This document shows positions 255-50,901 of a DNA stretch of 50,902 nt, one piece after another; positions within the stretch are counted from its first letter, which is position 1; the number at the start of each line of letters is the position of its first letter. The stretch is from positions 1 to 50,902 of the forward strand of contig JAJZJF010000005.1 of the NCBI GenBank assembly GCA_021810245.1. Direction: 5' to 3'. The position numbers and the translations under genes are program-made. Source of the stretch: a bacterium (GTDB lineage Bacteria; Elusimicrobiota; Elusimicrobia; UBA1565; UBA9628). Below the pieces are notes generated by a model. That model had not been told where the DNA came from. It ran no database searches and saw only the letters and a program-made list of their open reading frames with translations.

Positions 255-694
255 TGCTAGAAATATTAGAACACCTCATCAGCCAGGAGTCGCAGCACCC
301 GCATCAGTTTAGGGCGGCTCTTTACCGAGAATTTCTTTCGTCAGAGGTCTATCTTTTGACCTTAGGCGAACCCATCAAGGACGGCCTTTCCACATTCCGA
401 AAATCAAATGATTTTCTTCTATGGGCGGAGCAGAAATCCCCGGGGGAATTTCGGGTTCCGGTGTTTCCCTCTTCCGACTCGGTAGCCGCTTTCATTTCTT
501 CTCATCATTTGACCGCTCCCGAGGGAAAAGAATTTCTCTGGATGAGCCAAAACCCGCAAAGAGCCTTGGCGCCGCTGCTTGAGTTAAACGGCTTTTTAGG
601 CCTCAACCTTTATCTGGCGGAAAATGAATCCGTCGCTGTTTCCCAAGAAGAGACCAAGCTCTTGGCGCAGGGAATTATTCCCAACGCCGCTTGA
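254..694 (+). CDS. SseB-like domain protein
   Basis: A 146-residue protein that reads as one SseB N-terminal type domain: an N-terminal helix, a segment SSEVYLLTLGE, a central FRVPVFPSSDSVAAFI strand-helix motif and a C-terminal LGLNLYLAENE strand before a final helix. Proteins with this fold are poorly characterised; the E. coli founder affects serine sensitivity, and others are secretion chaperones. No signal peptide or membrane segment is visible. The ATG at 254 is supported by a promoter that would start the mRNA at that codon. It converges with the histidine kinase gene, whose stop lies 2 nt away on the other strand. The family call rests on the remembered motif pattern. Confidence 0.6.
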   Translation: MLEILEHLISQESQHPHQFRAALYREFLSSEVYLLTLGEPIKDGLSTFRKSNDFLLWAEQKSPGEFRVPVFPSSDSVAAFISSHHLTAPEGKEFLWMSQNPQRALAPLLELNGFLGLNLYLAENESVAVSQEETKLLAQGIIPNAA

Positions 695-7331: not shown

Positions 7332-7407
7332 TGGTGGACGTGACAGGGATCGAACCTGCGACCTCCTCGTTGCGAACGAGGCGCTCTCCCAGCTGAGCTA
7401 CACGCCC
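7332..7407 (-). tRNA. tRNA-Ala (anticodon CGC)
   Basis: A full 76-nt cloverleaf on the minus strand with encoded CCA. The acceptor stem is GGGCGTG/CACGTCC with the G3-U70 wobble that identifies alanine tRNAs. The anticodon loop is TTCGCAA, giving CGC and reading GCG. The 5' half (7370-7407) is supplied by the integrated island and the 3' half (7332-7369) is chromosomal. The integrase gene ends 8 nt upstream in the same direction, so the upstream sequence of this tRNA is now island DNA. Confidence 0.97.
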
Positions 7408-7408
7408 A
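7370..7408. repeat. attL: 39-bp direct repeat of tRNA-Ala 5' half
   Basis: Bases 7370-7408 are identical to 24205-24243 and in the same orientation. They span tRNA nucleotides 1-38, up to the end of the anticodon loop, plus one outside base. The crossover therefore lies in or near the anticodon stem-loop. Confidence 0.92.
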
Positions 7409-7415
7409 AAATCAT

Positions 7416-8483
7416 TTAATTATAAGTATTTTTTAAAACTTTTTGAGATTCAATTTTAAGCTTGGTGTCCAAAAAGTGTCCATCCTGGGGCAAATCCGCT
7501 GATTCAATAGGCATTAACGCATCGAATTTATCCATCTTCGCGGCCAAATGCTCCTTGGCCAAATGAGCGTAGCGCTGGGTCATTTGAGGCGAAGAATGGC
7601 CCAGTATCTTTTGCAAAGACGGCAAATCGCCCGTTCTCATGACAAAATGGCTCGCGAATGTATGTCGTAAATCATGGAATCTGAACTCTTGTATTTTACC
7701 ATTTTTCAATGCACGGGCAAATTGCCGCCGCAATGTGATCTCCGGCATATTGAAAACAGAGCCTGCGGGTCTGGGATTTAAGGCTAAAAAAACCTCCTTG
7801 AGTTTTTTGCCGATTGGAATTTCCCTGGGCTTGCCCGATTTCGACTGGAGAATAAAGATTGTGTCATGTTCCAAATCCAGGTTCTCCCAACGCAATCCCA
7901 AAATTTCCCCTTTCCTCATCCCGGTGAGGATAGCGCACGTTAAAATCGGGCGGATTCGGCTCTCGGCCGCGTTCAGGAGTTGCTTAATCTCCGCTTCGCT
8001 TAAGAAGCGCAGGCGATGGTTGTTTGGCTTTCTGCGGCGAACTTTTTCTACTGGGTTTTCGCCGAAGTAGTCCCCCCATTCCTTGGCGCGGTTAAAAACA
8101 GGCGAAAGAAACGCCAGGATGCGGTTGGCGGTCGAAGCGCTTGTCGCCCCGGCTTTCTCATTGTAAAACTCCTGTAAATCAGCGGTCGATACCTCCGCGA
8201 GTTTTTTATCGCAAAACCTTGACTCCAAACTTTTAAAAACCGCGTGGATGCCGTTTGCTTGAAGATACTGCCCCTCCAATCTCCAATATTTTTCCACGGC
8301 CCGCGTAAAAGAAATGGAACTCTTGACCCGTTCGGGGAAATACTTGCCTTCGGCAATTTCGCTTTGGCGCTTGAGAAGGACTTCCCGTGCCAGGCTTTTG
8401 GACGGGCCGATCTTCTCCCGTTTGCGGCGATTGCCGCGGTAATAATCGATATACCAGTTCTCGCCCTTCCTCAGGATACCCAT
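7416..8483 (-). CDS. int: Tyrosine integrase of island 1
   Basis: A 355-residue phage-type tyrosine recombinase. An N-terminal arm-binding-like domain (about 1-50) and SAM-like core-binding domain (about 55-150) precede the catalytic domain. Catalytic residues are R190 (LTGMRKGE), H270 and R273 (FHDLRHTFASH), H296 (ILGHSS) and nucleophile Y305 (TQRYAHL). All are present, so it should be active. The stop codon lies 8 nt before the tRNA-Ala and overlaps a TATAAT that faces the tRNA. The last part of the gene also contains a paired GTGTCCA repeat that recurs near the right end of the island. A 52-codon gene ends 8 nt upstream of the start. Confidence 0.95.
   Translation of the reverse strand: MGILRKGENWYIDYYRGNRRKREKIGPSKSLAREVLLKRQSEIAEGKYFPERVKSSISFTRAVEKYWRLEGQYLQANGIHAVFKSLESRFCDKKLAEVSTADLQEFYNEKAGATSASTANRILAFLSPVFNRAKEWGDYFGENPVEKVRRRKPNNHRLRFLSEAEIKQLLNAAESRIRPILTCAILTGMRKGEILGLRWENLDLEHDTIFILQSKSGKPREIPIGKKLKEVFLALNPRPAGSVFNMPEITLRRQFARALKNGKIQEFRFHDLRHTFASHFVMRTGDLPSLQKILGHSSPQMTQRYAHLAKEHLAAKMDKFDALMPIESADLPQDGHFLDTKLKIESQKVLKNTYN
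7419..7424 (-). promoter_or_regulatory. Element-borne -10 box for the rebuilt tRNA-Ala
   Basis: TATAAT on the minus strand, 11 nt before tRNA nucleotide 1, overlapping the integrase stop codon (7416-7418) at its edge. No good -35 is seen at 16-18 nt. It is the candidate replacement for the promoter left at 24252-24257. Confidence 0.5.
7463..7483. repeat. Paired GTGTCCA repeat, left arm site of island 1
   Basis: GTGTCCA occurs twice, 11 bp apart start to start, inside the 3' end of the integrase gene. A 21-bp stretch here is identical to 24054-24074, and similarity continues for about 11 bp more with two mismatches. Same-orientation copies near both island ends fit integrase arm-type sites. 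Confidence 0.55.
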
Positions 8484-36267: not shown

Positions 36268-37209
36268 ATGGATAAAAAATATTGCGTCATGTTTGCCGGC
36301 CAATCCGTTCAAGAGTCCGGGATGGGAAAAGATCTCCTTAAAATTCCCGCCGCCAAAGATATCCTCTTGCGCCTTAAGCCTTTTCTGGGAGAGGATTTGG
36401 AATATCTGCTGACCGAAATGCCCGATTCCGAGCTTGCCTTGACTTTTAACGCCCAAAGGGCCATTCACGCTCATCACCTGGCAAATTATTTCGCCTATAA
36501 AGCGGCGCATCCGGAATTAAGCCTCAACGGCGCCCTTGGGCATTCCATGGGAATTGTCGCGGCCTTGGTCGCCGCGGAATCAATCAGTCTGGAAGACTCC
36601 GGAAAATTTATTTTCGCCCGCGCCAAGGCTTTTTCAGAGGTCTGCAAAACTTTTACGGATCCGATGGGGCTGGCCTCTGTCAGCGCGGATGATTTTAAAG
36701 ACGTGGTCGATGAAGTCGCGCGCTTTGCCCCCATTTCGGTCGCTCTTTACAACACTAAAAGGCGCGGTGTCTTGGGTGGAACAATGGCTGAACTTGAGAA
36801 CTTCGCTCAAAAAGCCCGAGCCGAGGATTGGCCGGTCCGCATTAAAATCCTTAAAGTCGAGGGGCCGTATCACACCAAGGCATTCACGTCCTGCCGCGCC
36901 GAATTAGACCGCGCTTTGTCCGCTATTGAAATCAAGCCGCCTAAAGCGCCGGTCTTCATGGGGACCTCGGGACAGGCTGAAAAAGATCCCGAGCGGATCC
37001 GCCTCCTTTTGTCTTCCCAAGCCGATTCTTCTGAACTTTATCTTCAGGCCGTTGAATCGGCATATGCGGCTGGCTGCCGAGACTTTATCGAAATCGCCTA
37101 CAAGCCCCAGCCGGTCACCTGGCTTTCCGAGCAGTTGATTTCGGAAGACGGCGCTTTATTTGAAGGCGTCACCAGCGCCGCAATTAAAACGGAAGATATC
37201 CTCGCTTAG
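36268..37209 (+). CDS. Acyl-carrier-protein acyltransferase (FabD-like)
   Basis: A 313-residue malonyl-CoA:ACP transacylase family protein. The nucleophile motif is GHSMG (S93) and the catalytic His lies in GPYHTKAF (H202); the oxyanion-type start FAGQSVQESGMG is also present. It would load malonyl or a related acyl group onto an acyl carrier protein. It is the third gene of an operon with the PlsC-PPTase fusion. It lacks the usual fabH/fabG neighbours of the housekeeping gene, so this may serve a special lipid or polyketide pathway rather than primary fatty acid synthesis. Confidence 0.87.
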   Translation: MDKKYCVMFAGQSVQESGMGKDLLKIPAAKDILLRLKPFLGEDLEYLLTEMPDSELALTFNAQRAIHAHHLANYFAYKAAHPELSLNGALGHSMGIVAALVAAESISLEDSGKFIFARAKAFSEVCKTFTDPMGLASVSADDFKDVVDEVARFAPISVALYNTKRRGVLGGTMAELENFAQKARAEDWPVRIKILKVEGPYHTKAFTSCRAELDRALSAIEIKPPKAPVFMGTSGQAEKDPERIRLLLSSQADSSELYLQAVESAYAAGCRDFIEIAYKPQPVTWLSEQLISEDGALFEGVTSAAIKTEDILA

Positions 37210-37245: not shown

Positions 37246-37359
37246 TCTCGAAAAAATCCATTTTCAGAGGGAAAAATGTTAAGATAAACTTCAACGGCGC
37301 GTTCGTCTAGCGGCCCAGGACGCTGCCCTCTCAAGGCAGAGACCACGGGTTCAAATCCC
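37246..37359. repeat. Left 114-bp direct repeat of island 2
   Basis: Identical to 50775-50888 in the same orientation. It covers about 50 bp upstream of tRNA-Glu and the tRNA up to the T-loop. Such a long repeat includes the tRNA upstream region, unlike a minimal att core. Confidence 0.9.
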
Positions 37360-37372
37360 AACGACCCCGCCA
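37296..37372 (+). pseudogene. tRNA-Glu copy with broken 3' end
   Basis: Nucleotides up to the T-loop (37359) match the intact tRNA-Glu at 50825. After it the sequence reads AACGACCCCGCCA, which cannot pair with the T-stem or with acceptor GGCGCGT. The 5' half is therefore that of a tRNA whose 3' end was displaced by the insertion. Confidence 0.85.
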
Positions 37373-37478: not shown

Positions 37479-37497
37479 CGCACACTCAAGCGCACAC
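37479..37497. repeat. Paired CGCACAC repeat, left arm of island 2
   Basis: CGCACAC occurs at 37479-37485 and 37491-37497, 12 bp apart, just beyond the integrase stop. The same pair and spacing recurs at 50717-50735 on the other side. Confidence 0.55.
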
Positions 37498-37509: not shown

Positions 37510-38568
37510 TCATTGAAGTTCTTCAATCCCATAAAAAATTGATTCCTTTTCATCAAAACGTTGCGCCCGATCAAGATAGTGCTGAATTGAATCTGGCGAA
37601 GAATGCCCCAGTTCCGTTTGCAACTGTCGAAAATGCTTGACAACCATGGCCCGGTGAGTGGCGAATGTCCCTCGGAGATCGTAGGACACAGCGGGTTTAT
37701 TGACTCCCGATTTCAGCAGAGCCTTCCTAAAGACACGCGCCAAATAAACTCCGGCATATGGATTCCCAGTTTTTGGATTGCAAAAGAAAAGCCCGCTCAC
37801 GGGGTGGGGAGTAAGACTTTTAAGCAATTCTCCAAAGCGCGGACCAAGTGATTTTATTTTGAGGTAACGGCGTTCATTCTTCCGCGAAGTTTTTTTCCGT
37901 TTTGAATTTAAAAGCCAAACTTCGCCCTTCTCCCAATCAATATTTTCTTTTCCAAATTGGTTCGCTTCTCCAGGCCGCGCTCCTGTCAAAATTCGGAATT
38001 CAAACAAAAATCGCAGATGTTCGGGCAAGCAAATGAGAAGTTTTTCGATTTCTTCTTTTGTAAGCCAAACCTCGGCGCGATTTCCATCCGCAAGACCGAG
38101 TTTCTTAATATCAGCAAGGACGTTACGGCGGATCAGTCCTAAATCCGCCGCATATTGAAGAACCACCCGCAAACATTTGAATTCTTTGAGCACGGTCCCT
38201 TCCGAGCAGCCTGTTTGTTTAACCCCCAGTTTTCCAGAAAGACGCGCGTGCTTAAAGTTTTCCCAATCCTCACGCATAATTTCGTGAAGATTCTTTGGTC
38301 CAAAAAATCTGCATAGCGATTTTACTGTCCAGATTTCACGTTTGCATGAGGAATCTTTCAGTCGATGCTTCGCATTCATTGTAAGATAACGCTCCTGAGC
38401 GAATCTCTCAAAAGTCATCGGCTCTTGGCCTGCCCCTAAATTCGATTCCGCCTGTTGCCCGCCAATTAGGAATTCAGTCAAGGCCGTAATCGGCACAACA
38501 CGGCGAATATAGTTTCCGCCATGTCGGTATTCAAAGCGCACAACATCTCCTTCTTTGACGACGTTCAT
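37510..38568 (-). CDS. Tyrosine recombinase, left end of island 2
   Basis: A 352-residue phage-type integrase. Catalytic Arg in LTGARPGEANQ, a second box YDLRGTFATH, third box ELGHSSPDS and nucleophile Tyr in QHYLDRAQ. In the second box the usual H-x-L-R-H reads Y-D-L-R-G, a tolerated substitution of the first His by Tyr. The core-binding domain covers about 60-160. Its ATG overlaps the stop of the upstream excisionase-like gene by one base (TAATG), so three genes are coupled. The stop lies 150 bp from the left repeat. Confidence 0.92.
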   Translation of the reverse strand: MNVVKEGDVVRFEYRHGGNYIRRVVPITALTEFLIGGQQAESNLGAGQEPMTFERFAQERYLTMNAKHRLKDSSCKREIWTVKSLCRFFGPKNLHEIMREDWENFKHARLSGKLGVKQTGCSEGTVLKEFKCLRVVLQYAADLGLIRRNVLADIKKLGLADGNRAEVWLTKEEIEKLLICLPEHLRFLFEFRILTGARPGEANQFGKENIDWEKGEVWLLNSKRKKTSRKNERRYLKIKSLGPRFGELLKSLTPHPVSGLFFCNPKTGNPYAGVYLARVFRKALLKSGVNKPAVSYDLRGTFATHRAMVVKHFRQLQTELGHSSPDSIQHYLDRAQRFDEKESIFYGIEELQ

Positions 38569-38885
38569 TAAGTTTTTCCGTCCACTTGATTTTTTCTTGG
38601 ACGCCCCTTGTAGCTATATCGATGTTGGGAAATATATTTCTCAATTTCTCTTTCCTCAAAGAGACGACGATGTCCGAAATTCGTTGGGTGTAGCCCGAGC
38701 TCTTTCCAATTGTGCGCCAACCAAAAATAAGAATAACCCATTTTTTCCGCCGCCTCTTCCATAGTCAGTAGCCTTGATTTTTGAGAGGCTAATGATGGAA
38801 GCGAAGCTGGGAAAGGATAGGAACCGATGATCTTTCCAGGACACTGGCATGATGGGCAATGCAACGCGGGGGATGCAGCGCTCAC
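38568..38885 (-). CDS. Excisionase-like helix-turn-helix protein
   Basis: A 105-residue protein with a C-terminal HTH_17-type domain (LLTMEEAAEKMGYSYFWLAH, RRLFEEREIEKYI). Its N-terminal part (CPSCQCPGK) is of unknown function. It begins at GTG in the overlap GTGA with the previous gene and ends overlapping the integrase ATG. Such proteins direct excision or bind arm sites. An ATG at the MEEAAEKMGY position may be an alternative start. Confidence 0.75.
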   Translation of the reverse strand: MSAASPALHCPSCQCPGKIIGSYPFPASLPSLASQKSRLLTMEEAAEKMGYSYFWLAHNWKELGLHPTNFGHRRLFEEREIEKYISQHRYSYKGRPRKNQVDGKT

Positions 38886-39070
38886 AAACCACTCCCCAAG
38901 AAATCATCGAACTTCTCCACATTGATCAGCCAAAGTCTGGGACCAAATTTCCGGCAGGGGAGAATCCCCAATCGGCACCAAGACTGAACCGTTTTTTTGC
39001 TGACCCCAAATTTTTGCGCCACATCGGACGGTTTGAGCCAGCGGCAAGGTTTGAATTTTCCTTTTTTCAT
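38882..39070 (-). CDS. Excisionase-like HTH protein (MerR/Xis fold)
   Basis: A 62-residue protein consisting of one winged-helix HTH_17 domain (WLKPSDVAQKFGVSKKTVQS, LPCRKFGPRLWLINVEKFDD). GGAGGG (39075-39080) lies before the ATG at 39070; an in-frame ATG at 39082 falls inside the hairpin and is less likely. It overlaps the next gene by GTGA and is the first gene of a three-gene xis-xis-int operon. A hairpin stands directly upstream. Confidence 0.8.
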   Translation of the reverse strand: MKKGKFKPCRWLKPSDVAQKFGVSKKTVQSWCRLGILPCRKFGPRLWLINVEKFDDFLGSGL

Positions 39071-39079
39071 CACGCCCTC

Positions 39080-39108
39080 CATAGGGGCGCAATGCCTGCG
39101 CCCCTATG
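39080..39108. repeat. 12-bp stem hairpin abutting the ribosome site
   Basis: CATAGGGGCGCA (39080-39091) pairs perfectly with TGCGCCCCTATG (39097-39108) around a 5-base loop. Read on the minus strand it ends at the first base of the GGAGGG site of the first excisionase-like gene, so it could mask or expose that site, or be an operator. Confidence 0.75.
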
Positions 39109-40873: not shown

Positions 40874-41660
40874 AGCTTTCTTATCTTTAAACCCCGGCAG
40901 CGCGGGCGAATTCTTCTATCGTTTGAAAACGTTCCTTGGGGTCGGGCTTTAAACATCGGACAATAATTTCATTGAGACGAACATTGCAGTCGGGTAGAAT
41001 CTCGGTAAGAGGTTTAAAGACGGAGCGCTCCTTTTGCGCCAAAAAGTCCGGGCCGCGGAAGGGGATATCCCCGGTCAAGGCTTCGTAAATGGTCGCCCCC
41101 AAAGAGTAGATGTCCGAGCGCGCATCCCATTTCCCCAAGTGCTGCTCCGGCGACATATAAGCGAAAGTCCCGGCGGTTTCAACTCGGCTCACTCGGCTCA
41201 TCGCGTCCAGCGCCTGACCTGCGATGCCAAAATCCATCACTTTCGCTCCCTCCGCCTTCGTCACCATGATATTGGAGGGCTTTAAATCTCGATGAATCAC
41301 CTTTTTTGAGTGGGCAAAAGCCAGGGCTCTACAAACCCCGCCGAGCACAGACCCCATTTCAGCCGCCGCTAGTTTCCCGTGTTTGGCGATCATTTCCGCC
41401 AAGTTTTGGCCCTCGACATATTCAAAGACCAAATAGACTTCGTTGGATTCCTCTATGATTTCATGGATATCCACAATCGAAGGATGGCGAAGTTGGGCCA
41501 CAATTTTGGCTTCATCCAAAAAGCGAGCTTTCTCCTTGGGATTCATCGCCACCTCGGGACGCATCTTTTTTATCGCGACTCTGCGCCCCAATGAATGATC
41601 TTTTGCCTCATAGACCAATCCCATGCCTCCTTGACCGATTTGGCGCAAAAGCTCGTATTT
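40874..41660. repeat. 787-bp duplicated kinase segment, copy 1
   Basis: Nearly identical to 43003-43789 in the same orientation; I saw three base differences. It covers the kinase catalytic domain and about 13 bp past the stop codon, and ends abruptly just before the domain's start. Confidence 0.95.
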
Positions 41661-43002: not shown

Positions 43003-43789
43003 AGCTTTCTTATCTTTAAACCCCGGCGGCGCGGGCGAATTCTTCTATCGTTTGAAAACGTTCCTTGGGATCGGGCTTTAAACATCGGACAATAATTTCA
43101 TTGAGACGAACATTGCAGTCGGGTAGAATCTCGGTAAGAGGTTTAAAGACGGAGCGCTCCTTTTGCGCCAAAAAGTCCGGGCCGCGGAAGGGGATATCCC
43201 CGGTCAAGGCTTCGTAAATGGTCGCCCCCAAAGAGTAGATGTCCGAGCGCGCATCCCATTTCCCCAAGTGCTGCTCCGGCGACATATAAGCGAAAGTCCC
43301 GGCGGTTTCAACTCGGCTCACTCGGCTCATCGCGTCCAGCGCCTGACCTGCGATGCCAAAATCCATCACTTTCGCTCCCTCCGCCTTCGTCACCATGATA
43401 TTGGAGGGCTTTAAATCTCGATGAATCACCTTTTTTGAGTGGGCAAAAGCCAGGGCTCTACAAACCCCGCCGAGCACAGACCCCATTTCAGCCGCCGCTA
43501 GTTTCCCGTGTTTGGCGATCATTTCCGCCAAGTTTTGGCCCTCGACATATTCAAAGACCAAATAGACTTCGTTGGATTCCTCTATGATTTCATGGATATC
43601 CACAATCGAAGGATGGCGAAGTTGGGCCACAATTTTGGCTTCATCCAAAAAGCGAGCTTTCTCCTTGGGATTCATCGCCACCTCGGGACGCATCTTTTTT
43701 ATCGCGACTCTGCGCCCCAATGAATGATCTTTTGCCTCATAGACCAATCCCATGCCTCCTTGGCCGATTTGGCGCAAAAGCTCGTATTT
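43003..43789. repeat. 787-bp duplicated kinase segment, copy 2
   Basis: Copy of 40874-41660 at offset 2129, same orientation. Confidence 0.95.
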
Positions 43790-48698: not shown

Positions 48699-49133
48699 TA
48701 TTCGGCGAGCCGACACCATTTCGCCATGAGCGTATGAATCGAGGACAGTCTCCCTAAATCCCATGAGGCCAAACGGCGCGGGAATTAAGTAACTTGTCAC
48801 CGTAAGGCGTCGCAAAATAATCCTGATTCAGGCTGGATGACACCTAAATTTGAATAAAACCGCTATTTAAACGTCCAATCAACCGAACAAACTCGCCTTT
48901 TTTATTGTTTCTCAACGGAGAGCAATCTGTTATTTCTAATGGTAATGTGTGGATTTTAAGGTCATTTTAGGCTTTTAAGGCGTTTTAGGCGTCAAAATAT
49001 CCACGAGACCGAACAGAATTTGTGGGGGTAACCGAACAGCTTCTAAAACCTGGGAGGGTTGTCGGCAATCTGAAATTGGTCTTGCGGGGAATGCGGGCGT
49101 CCGCTAAACGACAGAGAGAGGCGAAACCGGGTA
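48699..49133. other. Intergenic region with ACCGAACA repeats
   Basis: No convincing gene. ACCGAACA occurs three times (48882-48889, 49008-49015, 49031-49038), and a TTTTAGG/TTTTAAGG-rich stretch lies at about 48955-48995. It sits between the FHA operon promoter and the end of the right integrase gene. A replication or recombination role cannot be shown. Confidence 0.5.
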
Positions 49134-50696
49134 TTACGTCGCGGACAGCATTCGCTTGGAATTAAGCCGCAGTCTGCCATTTTTCTTTTCAATAATGAAC
49201 CGAGTCAAATCCTCGGCTCTGAATCGACGTCCCTTGCCGATTTCAACGGAAGGCAATATTCCTTGGGCGGCCAGCCGGGAAATCATGCTAGGGTCTTTGT
49301 ATCCGAGAATAGCCGCGGCTTCTTCAGCCGTGAAAAGAGCGGCGAGTGCAGTCACTTCGTTTTTGAGAAACACGGTGCGCGAACCGATTTTAAAGGGATG
49401 AAGATGCTCAGCCTTAATCCACCCCACGTAAAGCTGCGTCCGATGAATTCTCAACTTGGCGCAGGTCTCGGCCACGCTGTAGAATAAATCTTTCGCCGAA
49501 TCCGAATTCAAATTCGTCTCAAGCGCGGCGTCTAATCCCTCCAGTCTCGCCTCGTCCAACTCAAGACCGCTCAACTTTAAGGCATGACGGAAAAGTTCCA
49601 AACGGATCGCTTTGTCCGGCCATGCTTGAGCGGGAAGCGTTTTCGCGGGGCCGCCGCTTCCAAAGCGGCGCCCATAATCTTCAAGCAAATCTTTTTCCTT
49701 GAAGTTGTAGTACGCCAGAGTCTCCTCGACATTCATATGCCGCGCCAGTTTTTGAACTCTCTTGGCATCCAGGCCGGATTCAACCCATTCGCTAATCCTT
49801 GTGTGGCGCAGATAATGAGTGCGCCCGACATATTCATGAGGCAAGCCCGCTTCTTGCGCCATCGGAATATAGACTTGATCCCGGTAGACCGCGCTGCTGA
49901 GAGCTTTGCCTTTTTTATTGCAGAAGATGACTCTGCCGACTACTTTTTTTGATTTTGGCGTCAAAACCTCCTCCGCCTCTATATTTTTTTGCCCCAGATA
50001 TTTATCGCGCGCGTCCAAATACCGTTTAAGATATCCGCAACCCAAAGGAGTCAAATAGGCCGTATCCTCAAACCCTGCGGCACGGTCTTTTGATTCACGG
50101 ATTACGATGGGAACAATCCCGCCGGGGTTCTGCCTAGACCAGAGAATGTCCTTTTCCGATAGGCGCGCGACTTCGGAAGCGCGCAAAGCCGCGTCATACT
50201 GAACCGCGATCATCGCCTTATCTCGAAGGTATAAGAATCTTCCCTCATCATTGAGACTAGACAATCGTTTTTCATCTATACCTAAAAGTCCATCGCGCTC
50301 ATCCGAACTTAAACGACGATATTCTTCATCTTTGATCGGCGCGGGAGCTTTGACGCCCCTCGCGATGTTTTCTGGAATCAAGCCCTGGCTATGCGCGGCT
50401 TTGAACAGACCTTTTAGATTCATCAGCAAAACTCGAATAGTCCGAGTTTTTATTTCACCCGCAGCTTGCCGCAGATCCAGGCTTTTCCGCAGATCCTGGA
50501 AGTCCTCGACATTAAAATCGCTGAGACTTTTCAGGACTCGCCCGGGGTGGGCTTTAACGATCTCGCGACAAAGCGCCGCGAAAGCGTTGCGATAGCCGTC
50601 TGCCGTCCCTGGACTTAAGGGTTCGCCGCTCCGCTGGTGGCGATAGTCAGAAATCACTTGCTCAAGCTGGGTTGAAAGGCTCTTTTGCGTTTTCAT
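49134..50696 (-). CDS. Tyrosine recombinase fused to two excisionase-like domains
   Basis: A 520-residue protein; GGAGG before the ATG at 50696 fixes the start. Residues 1-355 form a tyrosine recombinase: first Arg in YDAALRASEVARL, HYLRHTRIS, LARHMNVEE and nucleophile Tyr in TLAYYNFKE. After a linker, residues about 420-460 form a MerR/excisionase-like HTH_17 domain (AKLRIHRTQLYVGWIKAEHL, PFKIGSRTVFLKNEVTAL), and residues about 465-510 a second one (FTAEEAAAILGYKDPSMISR, GRRFRAEDLTRFII). Excisionase is usually a separate gene; here the same chain could bind arm sites and recombine. Confidence 0.9.
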   Translation of the reverse strand: MKTQKSLSTQLEQVISDYRHQRSGEPLSPGTADGYRNAFAALCREIVKAHPGRVLKSLSDFNVEDFQDLRKSLDLRQAAGEIKTRTIRVLLMNLKGLFKAAHSQGLIPENIARGVKAPAPIKDEEYRRLSSDERDGLLGIDEKRLSSLNDEGRFLYLRDKAMIAVQYDAALRASEVARLSEKDILWSRQNPGGIVPIVIRESKDRAAGFEDTAYLTPLGCGYLKRYLDARDKYLGQKNIEAEEVLTPKSKKVVGRVIFCNKKGKALSSAVYRDQVYIPMAQEAGLPHEYVGRTHYLRHTRISEWVESGLDAKRVQKLARHMNVEETLAYYNFKEKDLLEDYGRRFGSGGPAKTLPAQAWPDKAIRLELFRHALKLSGLELDEARLEGLDAALETNLNSDSAKDLFYSVAETCAKLRIHRTQLYVGWIKAEHLHPFKIGSRTVFLKNEVTALAALFTAEEAAAILGYKDPSMISRLAAQGILPSVEIGKGRRFRAEDLTRFIIEKKNGRLRLNSKRMLSAT

Positions 50697-50716: not shown

Positions 50717-50735
50717 CGCACACAAAAGCGCACAC
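50717..50735. repeat. Paired CGCACAC repeat, right arm of island 2
   Basis: CGCACAC occurs at 50717-50723 and 50729-50735, 12 bp apart, directly upstream of the integrase ribosome site and 40 bp inside the right 114-bp repeat. Matches the left pair in spacing and orientation. Confidence 0.55.
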
Positions 50736-50774: not shown

Positions 50775-50888
50775 TCTCGAAAAAATCCATTTTCAGAGGG
50801 AAAAATGTTAAGATAAACTTCAACGGCGCGTTCGTCTAGCGGCCCAGGACGCTGCCCTCTCAAGGCAGAGACCACGGGTTCAAATCCC
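50775..50888. repeat. Right 114-bp direct repeat of island 2
   Basis: Identical to 37246-37359. It contains the tRNA-Glu upstream region and tRNA nucleotides up to the T-loop. The intact tRNA 3' end follows. Confidence 0.9.
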
Positions 50889-50901
50889 GTACGCGCCACC
50901 A
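50825..50901 (+). tRNA. tRNA-Glu (anticodon CTC)
   Basis: A 77-nt cloverleaf with encoded CCA: acceptor GGCGCGT/ACGCGCC, anticodon loop CTCTCAA giving CTC and reading GAG, T-arm ACGGG/CCCGT around TTCAAAT. The left copy at 37296 shares all but the 3' end and is broken. The window ends one base after the CCA. Confidence 0.97.

Follow-up and report, generated by a model that had tools for sequence, protein, structure and literature searches.

The window (the whole stretch of DNA analysed, 50,902 nucleotides, which is the entire contig C140 of an assembly of 2.03 Mb and 94% completeness) carries, at the right end of a genomic island integrated in a tRNA gene, a gene that joins a complete tyrosine recombinase and two tandem winged helices, the latter by structure prediction, in one polypeptide. 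The fusion is conserved, catalytic residues included, in a family of single origin. Sequence comparisons and models tentatively favour, at a little under an even chance, the interpretation of the C-terminal tail as a built-in accessory-site-binding module of an island-borne simple (Xer/Cre-like) tyrosine recombinase.

The fused gene is a single ORF with an ATG start and a GGAGG-like site ahead of it; an alternative GTG start at 50735 would give a protein of 533 aa. The gene and its domains are as follows.

49134..50696, minus strand: fused recombinase gene, 520 aa (ORF, Pfam/NCBIfam matches, alignment).
50343..50696, minus strand: core-binding helices, approximately residues 1-118, at the very N-terminus (AlphaFold model; approximate border).
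49665..50342, minus strand: catalytic domain, approximately residues 119-344 (Pfam, alignment, model, structural matches).
49485..49664, minus strand: linker and two helices, residues 345-404, with low confidence for 345-355 (both models).
49338..49484, minus strand: first winged helix, residues 405-453 (both models, structural matches, HTH_17).
49182..49337, minus strand: second winged helix, residues 454-505, with the excisionase-family match (TIGR01764, both models, structural matches, HTH_17).

Pfam Phage_integrase matched residues 143-331 (E 8.9e-15, above the cut-off) and HTH_17 matched two stretches, 49344-49484 and 49194-49337 (E 1.3e-17 for the whole protein). The nearest NCBIfam models were XerC and XerD, the XerC-like match covering residues 24-343 (E 6.8e-21) and lying far below the curated cut-off of the model; scores were 74.9 bits against an equivalog cut-off of 335.15 for XerC, and 64.1 bits against 329.6 for XerD. 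The excisionase domain TIGR01764 was found above its cut-off at residues 455-501 (31.5 bits; cut-off 28.8). All six catalytic residues of tyrosine recombinases (R172, K203, H294, R297, H320 and Y329) were invariant in the 13 sequences aligned. An arm-binding domain before the core-binding domain is absent, as no arm-domain family of Pfam or NCBIfam was matched and the modelled helices start at residue 5; the enzyme is, as modelled, a 'simple' tyrosine recombinase lacking the N-terminal arm-binding domain. The original prediction, that one polypeptide carries a complete tyrosine recombinase and two HTH_17/MerR-type domains, was confirmed by the ORF, the Pfam matches, the catalytic residues and the models.

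The full-length protein was modelled by AlphaFold with a mean pLDDT of 83 and the tail alone with 87, both models having the same elements in the tail, two tandem winged helices; it was predicted neither as unfolded nor as disordered, in agreement with the winged-helix fold originally proposed for it. Residues 1-348 matched Xer, Cre and integron recombinases with Z up to 19.8. The best tandem structural match of the tail was TraN of plasmid pIP501 (4p0z; Foldseek E 1.9e-4), which was also the sole molecule found by sequence profile, under another name (E 0.011). Single tail domains matched BldC (6ama; Z 8.1), Xis of Pukovnik (4j2n; Z 7.4) and RdfS (8dgl; Z 6.3), and the first winged helix matched Xis of GIsul2 (8c3t; Z 6.9); because Z values under 8 are common, the assignment leans on BldC, TraN and the HMM matches. 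Passages of PMC10877727 describe TraN as having two winged helices and note its likeness to excisionases and BldC.

A set of 294 genomes drawn from across Elusimicrobiota had full-length fusions in 9 of them (13 loci), and 8 of the 44 genomes of the family of the window had them too, which added G294 and G300; altogether, the search for the same fusion elsewhere gave 15 full-length loci in 11 Elusimicrobiota genomes. Over the 294 genomes, the tail profile was met at 13 places in recombinase ORFs of 533-696 aa and in one 73-aa ORF, which adjoins the second type of recombinase described below (int2) in G094 and matches the second winged helix only; a free tail was otherwise never encountered. 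The tail has the MerR/Xis-type winged-helix fold of excisionases (TIGR01764, models, structural matches) and is not a small free protein apart from the integrase, since it lies inside recombinase ORFs at 13 of the 14 places. Nine of the 15 members form a more distant branch of longer proteins (626-696 aa), most with about 100 extra N-terminal residues.

The cores of the fused recombinases formed one clade with support of 100/99 in a tree of 28 rows (14 fused, 8 other tyrosine recombinases and 6 int2), from which a long-branch Xer row and the fused row G077b were left out and which held fewer other rows than a tree of 34 rows; in the latter, one long-branch Xer row fell inside the fused group, which gives two changes instead of one. 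On this phylogeny the fusion is considered to be of single origin. Identity of the tail to that of the window protein was, for most members, higher than or on par with whole-protein identity. In three close pairs, dN/dS was 0.22-0.24 for the core, 0.08-0.30 for the first winged helix and 0-0.13 for the second; these ratios indicate that the tail is under purifying selection and conserved as well as the core. Since the full-length fusion is conserved at 15 loci, chance is excluded as its explanation. No relatives were found in viral contigs by scans with the protein and with alignments; phages and plasmids gave only matches lacking the tail, and none with the tail alone as query. Of two further scans, over genome contigs, the first gave no relative and the second gave five loci, all on contigs already known to carry fused genes. 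From these sequence searches, in which the cellular part covered that phylum, the family is known here from Elusimicrobiota alone. Paired fused recombinases, head to head and about 1.3 kb apart, were observed in two distant genomes (L040, 9828-15010; L042, 6455-11612), one of them being followed by a serine-recombinase-like ORF, as read by eye.

The island, of about 13.5 kb, is inserted in tRNA-Glu(CTC), and its limits are the following.

37246..37359, plus strand: left att repeat, comprising the tRNA-Glu promoter and nucleotides 1-64 of the tRNA (direct-repeat comparison).
50775..50888, plus strand: right att repeat, identical to the left one over 114 bp (direct-repeat comparison).
50825..50901, plus strand: intact tRNA-Glu(CTC), at the contig end (tRNA prediction on the window).

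In the window, fabD (36268-37209) is followed by the island and then by the intact tRNA gene, and the contig stops at 50902; the gene for a penicillin-binding protein, truncated, opens another contig, C130. In the sister genome G222 the site is empty, with fabD, tRNA-Glu(CTC) and the penicillin-binding-protein gene consecutive (both gene names come from a Pfam match and sequence reading). The region thus has the terminal direct repeats, the tRNA site and the empty site in a relative that characterize a tRNA-integrated genomic island. At the same tRNA-Glu, G283 has the fused gene in decayed form, with 84% identity over residues 1-106. A tRNA T-arm was located within 450 bp of the fused gene at 7 of the 15 loci, on the 5' side at six of them (the window, G239C15, G162C74, G191C30, G300C65 and G294C194, the last with a tRNA-Asp half) and on the 3' side at one (G162C75, tRNA-Val).

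Several further features were observed at these sites. At window positions 37350-37372, the tRNA-Glu copy of the left att repeat lacks its own 3' end and has CCCAACGACCCCGCCA instead, which resembles the 3' end TTCAAATCCCGTCGACCCCG seen in G239, G191 and G162; judging by this sequence, the island may have originated at a different tRNA gene. Sequences resembling tRNA-Glu(UUC) adjoin the fused gene in L038 (9190-9276, minus strand), L037 (2970-3056, plus strand), L032 (6626-6711, plus strand) and L130 (5' of the gene); their 3' halves match the host tRNA exactly and their 5' halves are variant, and those of L037 and L038 have a predicted cloverleaf with an odd D-arm. In the cargo of the island, a 300-bp stretch occurs twice (40874-41173 and 43003-43302, 99% identity) in two genes with protein-kinase domains, one of them with WD40 repeats, and its sequence identity indicates a recent duplication. 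The sister genome G071 (L046, 2619-2900; L045, 1-700) has a restriction-system-like gene and a duplicated fabD 3' end before the same tRNA-Glu, and is thus read from the sequence as holding another insert at this spot, the gene type having been recognized by eye. Two ORFs adjoining the decayed fused gene of G283 (L039, 7635-9323) resemble, as judged by eye, a toxin-antitoxin pair of the AbiE type. Within 7332-8483 of the window there is a further tyrosine recombinase ORF (7416-8483, minus strand), 9 bp from tRNA-Ala(CGC).

The island encodes a second recombinase, int2, at its left end, with the following associated features.

37510..38568, minus strand: int2, tyrosine recombinase of ordinary architecture (domain match, relatives at tRNA genes).
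38568..38885, minus strand: 105-aa Xis-like protein (ORF, domain match).
38882..39082, minus strand: 66-aa free HTH_17 (Xis-type) protein (HTH_17 match).
37479..37497, plus strand: CGCACAC pair with 12-bp spacing, left end, assigned to int2.
50717..50735, plus strand: CGCACAC pair with 12-bp spacing, right end, assigned to int2.

The genes for the 105-aa and 66-aa proteins precede int2 and the gene ends overlap. Relatives of int2 adjoin tRNA genes (Glu, Cys, Ser), most of them with a Xis-like gene. Organised like a classic tRNA-site integrase, int2 appears from its sequence context to be a likelier driver of integration at the tRNA site than the fused enzyme, which makes any assignment of a substrate to the latter tentative. 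The two 12-bp-spaced pairs lie just inside the island ends, where none are expected by chance; a similar CGCACAC pair follows int2 in G094, a genome lacking the fused gene, and other pairs with 12-bp spacing were seen in G208 and G287. Binding of the tail to these repeats was considered and dropped, as such repeats are also present at int2 islands devoid of the fused gene. A fixed two-recombinase element was likewise discarded, as int2 and the fused gene lie on the same tRNA gene in only three of the eight family genomes that have a fused gene (in the window by linkage; in G239 and G191 through tRNA halves that are identical and lie on separate contigs); they do not share a tRNA gene in G294, G300 and G162, an int2 match is absent in G283, and G181 has int2 with no tRNA on the examined stretch. 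In pairwise comparisons with the two tail domains, none of 500 shuffles scored as well as the 105-aa protein against either domain, and 108 and 60 of 500 did so for the 66-aa protein, which suggests a likeness to both domains for the 105-aa protein and no clear one for the 66-aa protein; such pairwise scores are too slight a basis for deriving the tail from a Xis operon of the int2 type.

Just 3' of the fused gene, a cluster of short repeats was detected.

48881..49038, minus strand: conserved 3' cluster, with TGTTCGGTT at 48881-48889 and 49030-49038 and TGTTCGGTC at 49007-49015.
48965..48990, minus strand: three direct repeats with a 9-bp period, inside the cluster (none in shuffles).

Ten copies of TGTTCGGTT were counted in 467,948 bases (13 contig stretches with fused genes), the expected number being about 2.6 summed over 11 of the 13 stretches; nine copies lie at -45 to +253 bp of the 3' end of the fused gene and one is 1282 bp off. 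Spacings of 23 and 126 bp are common to the clusters of the window and G239C15. The most-shared 8-mer was GTTCGGTT, in 6 of 11 chosen 3' regions, and the best 8-mer of 11 random regions reached at least 6 in 5 of 1000 draws; the 11 regions are those of the 15 loci that remain after removal of G077b and of three near-duplicates (G239C15, G162C74 and G300C65), and the motif had been noticed before it was tested. In G162C74, G191C30, the two loci of G037, and G077b, the 600 bp 3' of the gene contained no site within one mismatch of GTTCGGTT; in G283C84 and G162C75 a site is present, inverted with respect to the gene. The 9-bp repeats are present in three loci only: the window and, in looser form, G239C15 and G283C84, where a GCCT triple was spotted by eye and then by pattern. 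A generic scan for short-period triple repeats singled out the 9-bp period in the window, where 2 of 200 random stretches did equally well, and in none of eight other loci. A repeat length of 9 bp is reported for a BldC target in passages of PMC11963761. The cluster of TGTTCGGTT and 9-bp repeats is accordingly put forward as a candidate binding region of the tail, as a lead rather than a proof, because it is missing in several loci and inverted in two.

The reading of the tail as an accessory DNA-binding module is favoured because the enzyme has no N-terminal arm-binding domain. The tail would bind accessory DNA repeats near the recombination site, the 3' cluster being the best candidate target, and would bend or hold this DNA and steady the synapsis. 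In this way a C-terminal tail would do the job of an N-terminal arm-binding domain, or of an arm domain plus Xis. As helper and enzyme are covalently joined and always 1:1, control would be exerted through expression of the fused gene rather than through the supply of Xis. A further proposal is that a simple recombinase became a mobile-element enzyme by capturing two excisionase-like domains at its C-terminus, so that a single protein would bind both core and accessory repeats and determine the direction of its reaction, with no need of the N-terminal arm domain of known integrases; this is conceivable and rather doubtful.

Of the two functions suggested in the original prediction, added accessory-site binding fits better than locked directionality. 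The tail could be a true excisionase, a built-in directionality factor that would tilt the enzyme towards excision each time it is produced, as would agree with the TIGR01764 score above cut-off, the structural matches to the Xis proteins of Pukovnik and GIsul2 and to RdfS, and the position of the gene at the island edge; however, the same fold is used by the regulators BldC, MerR and TraN, and the fusion is not the only excisionase-like factor of the island because free Xis-type proteins are encoded beside int2. Characterised archaeal integrases run in both directions with no directionality factor, according to passages of PMC8371274, and therefore a simple enzyme need not have one. We consider this alternative unlikely.

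It is fairly improbable that the protein is a maintenance recombinase, that is, a resolvase like Xer or TnpI that would use the 3' cluster as its site, for instance in the resolution of dimers formed by the excised island, with tail and repeats as its accessory complex. XerC and XerD are indeed the closest NCBIfam models, the conserved sites are beside the gene and not at the tRNA junction, and int2 already accounts for tRNA integration; yet the cluster is missing in several members, a clear core site was not found, 7 of the 15 loci have the fused gene at a tRNA junction, and no int2 was detected at the same tRNA in G162C74, G300C65 and G294C194.

A tail acting mainly as repressor or activator of the recombinase's own promoter and of nearby genes is very unlikely: the fold is of MerR/BldC type and TraN, which matches the tandem best, binds DNA sequence-specifically and regulates conjugative transfer (passages of PMC10877727), but the conserved repeats found sit 3' of the gene and not in its promoter, and regulation needs no covalent link. 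Finally, an artefact joining two genes by read-through, frameshift or assembly error, which the fragmented assembly and the nearby contig end could suggest, is refuted because independent loci carry the same fusion (one open frame at 15 loci in 11 assemblies, with a tail under purifying selection), and its probability is negligible.

Passages of Smyshlyaev et al. 2021 (PMC8138268) divide tyrosine recombinases into simple and arm-domain types, with Xis found only with the latter, and give the view that mobile-element integrases arose from simple recombinases through acquisition of a single arm-binding domain at the N-terminus. A conserved family with tandem excisionase-type domains at the C-terminus would represent an independent route to what the arm domain provides, and the conserved fusion suggests a mobile element whose recombinase has its helper built in. 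With enzyme and helper naturally joined by a covalent bond, one could test how far the supply of helper sets direction, and the fused enzyme might serve as a one-component tool. No description of an integrase-excisionase fusion was found in the open-licence literature searched.

Compared with known systems, the simple tyrosine recombinases of Xer-related subgroups share with the fused enzyme the core-binding and catalytic domains, the catalytic residues and the lack of an N-terminal arm domain; unlike it, these subgroups are without a C-terminal winged helix in the passages of PMC8138268, where RitC has only an extra C-terminal helix. TraN of pIP501 shares the two tandem MerR/Xis-type winged helices, but is a free protein with no recombinase. 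BldC and the Xis proteins (6ama, 4j2n, 8c3t and 8dgl) share the fold of the single domains, and differ in being free single-domain proteins, BldC being a transcription factor. In integrases of the lambda and Tn916 type the arm domain is N-terminal and of another fold. These arm-domain integrases with a separate Xis, represented here by int2, have in common with the fused enzyme a recombinase core with accessory DNA-binding domains, and a system that includes winged helices of Xis type; Xis is free in the lambda/Tn916 type, whereas in the fused enzyme the winged helices are C-terminal and covalently attached.
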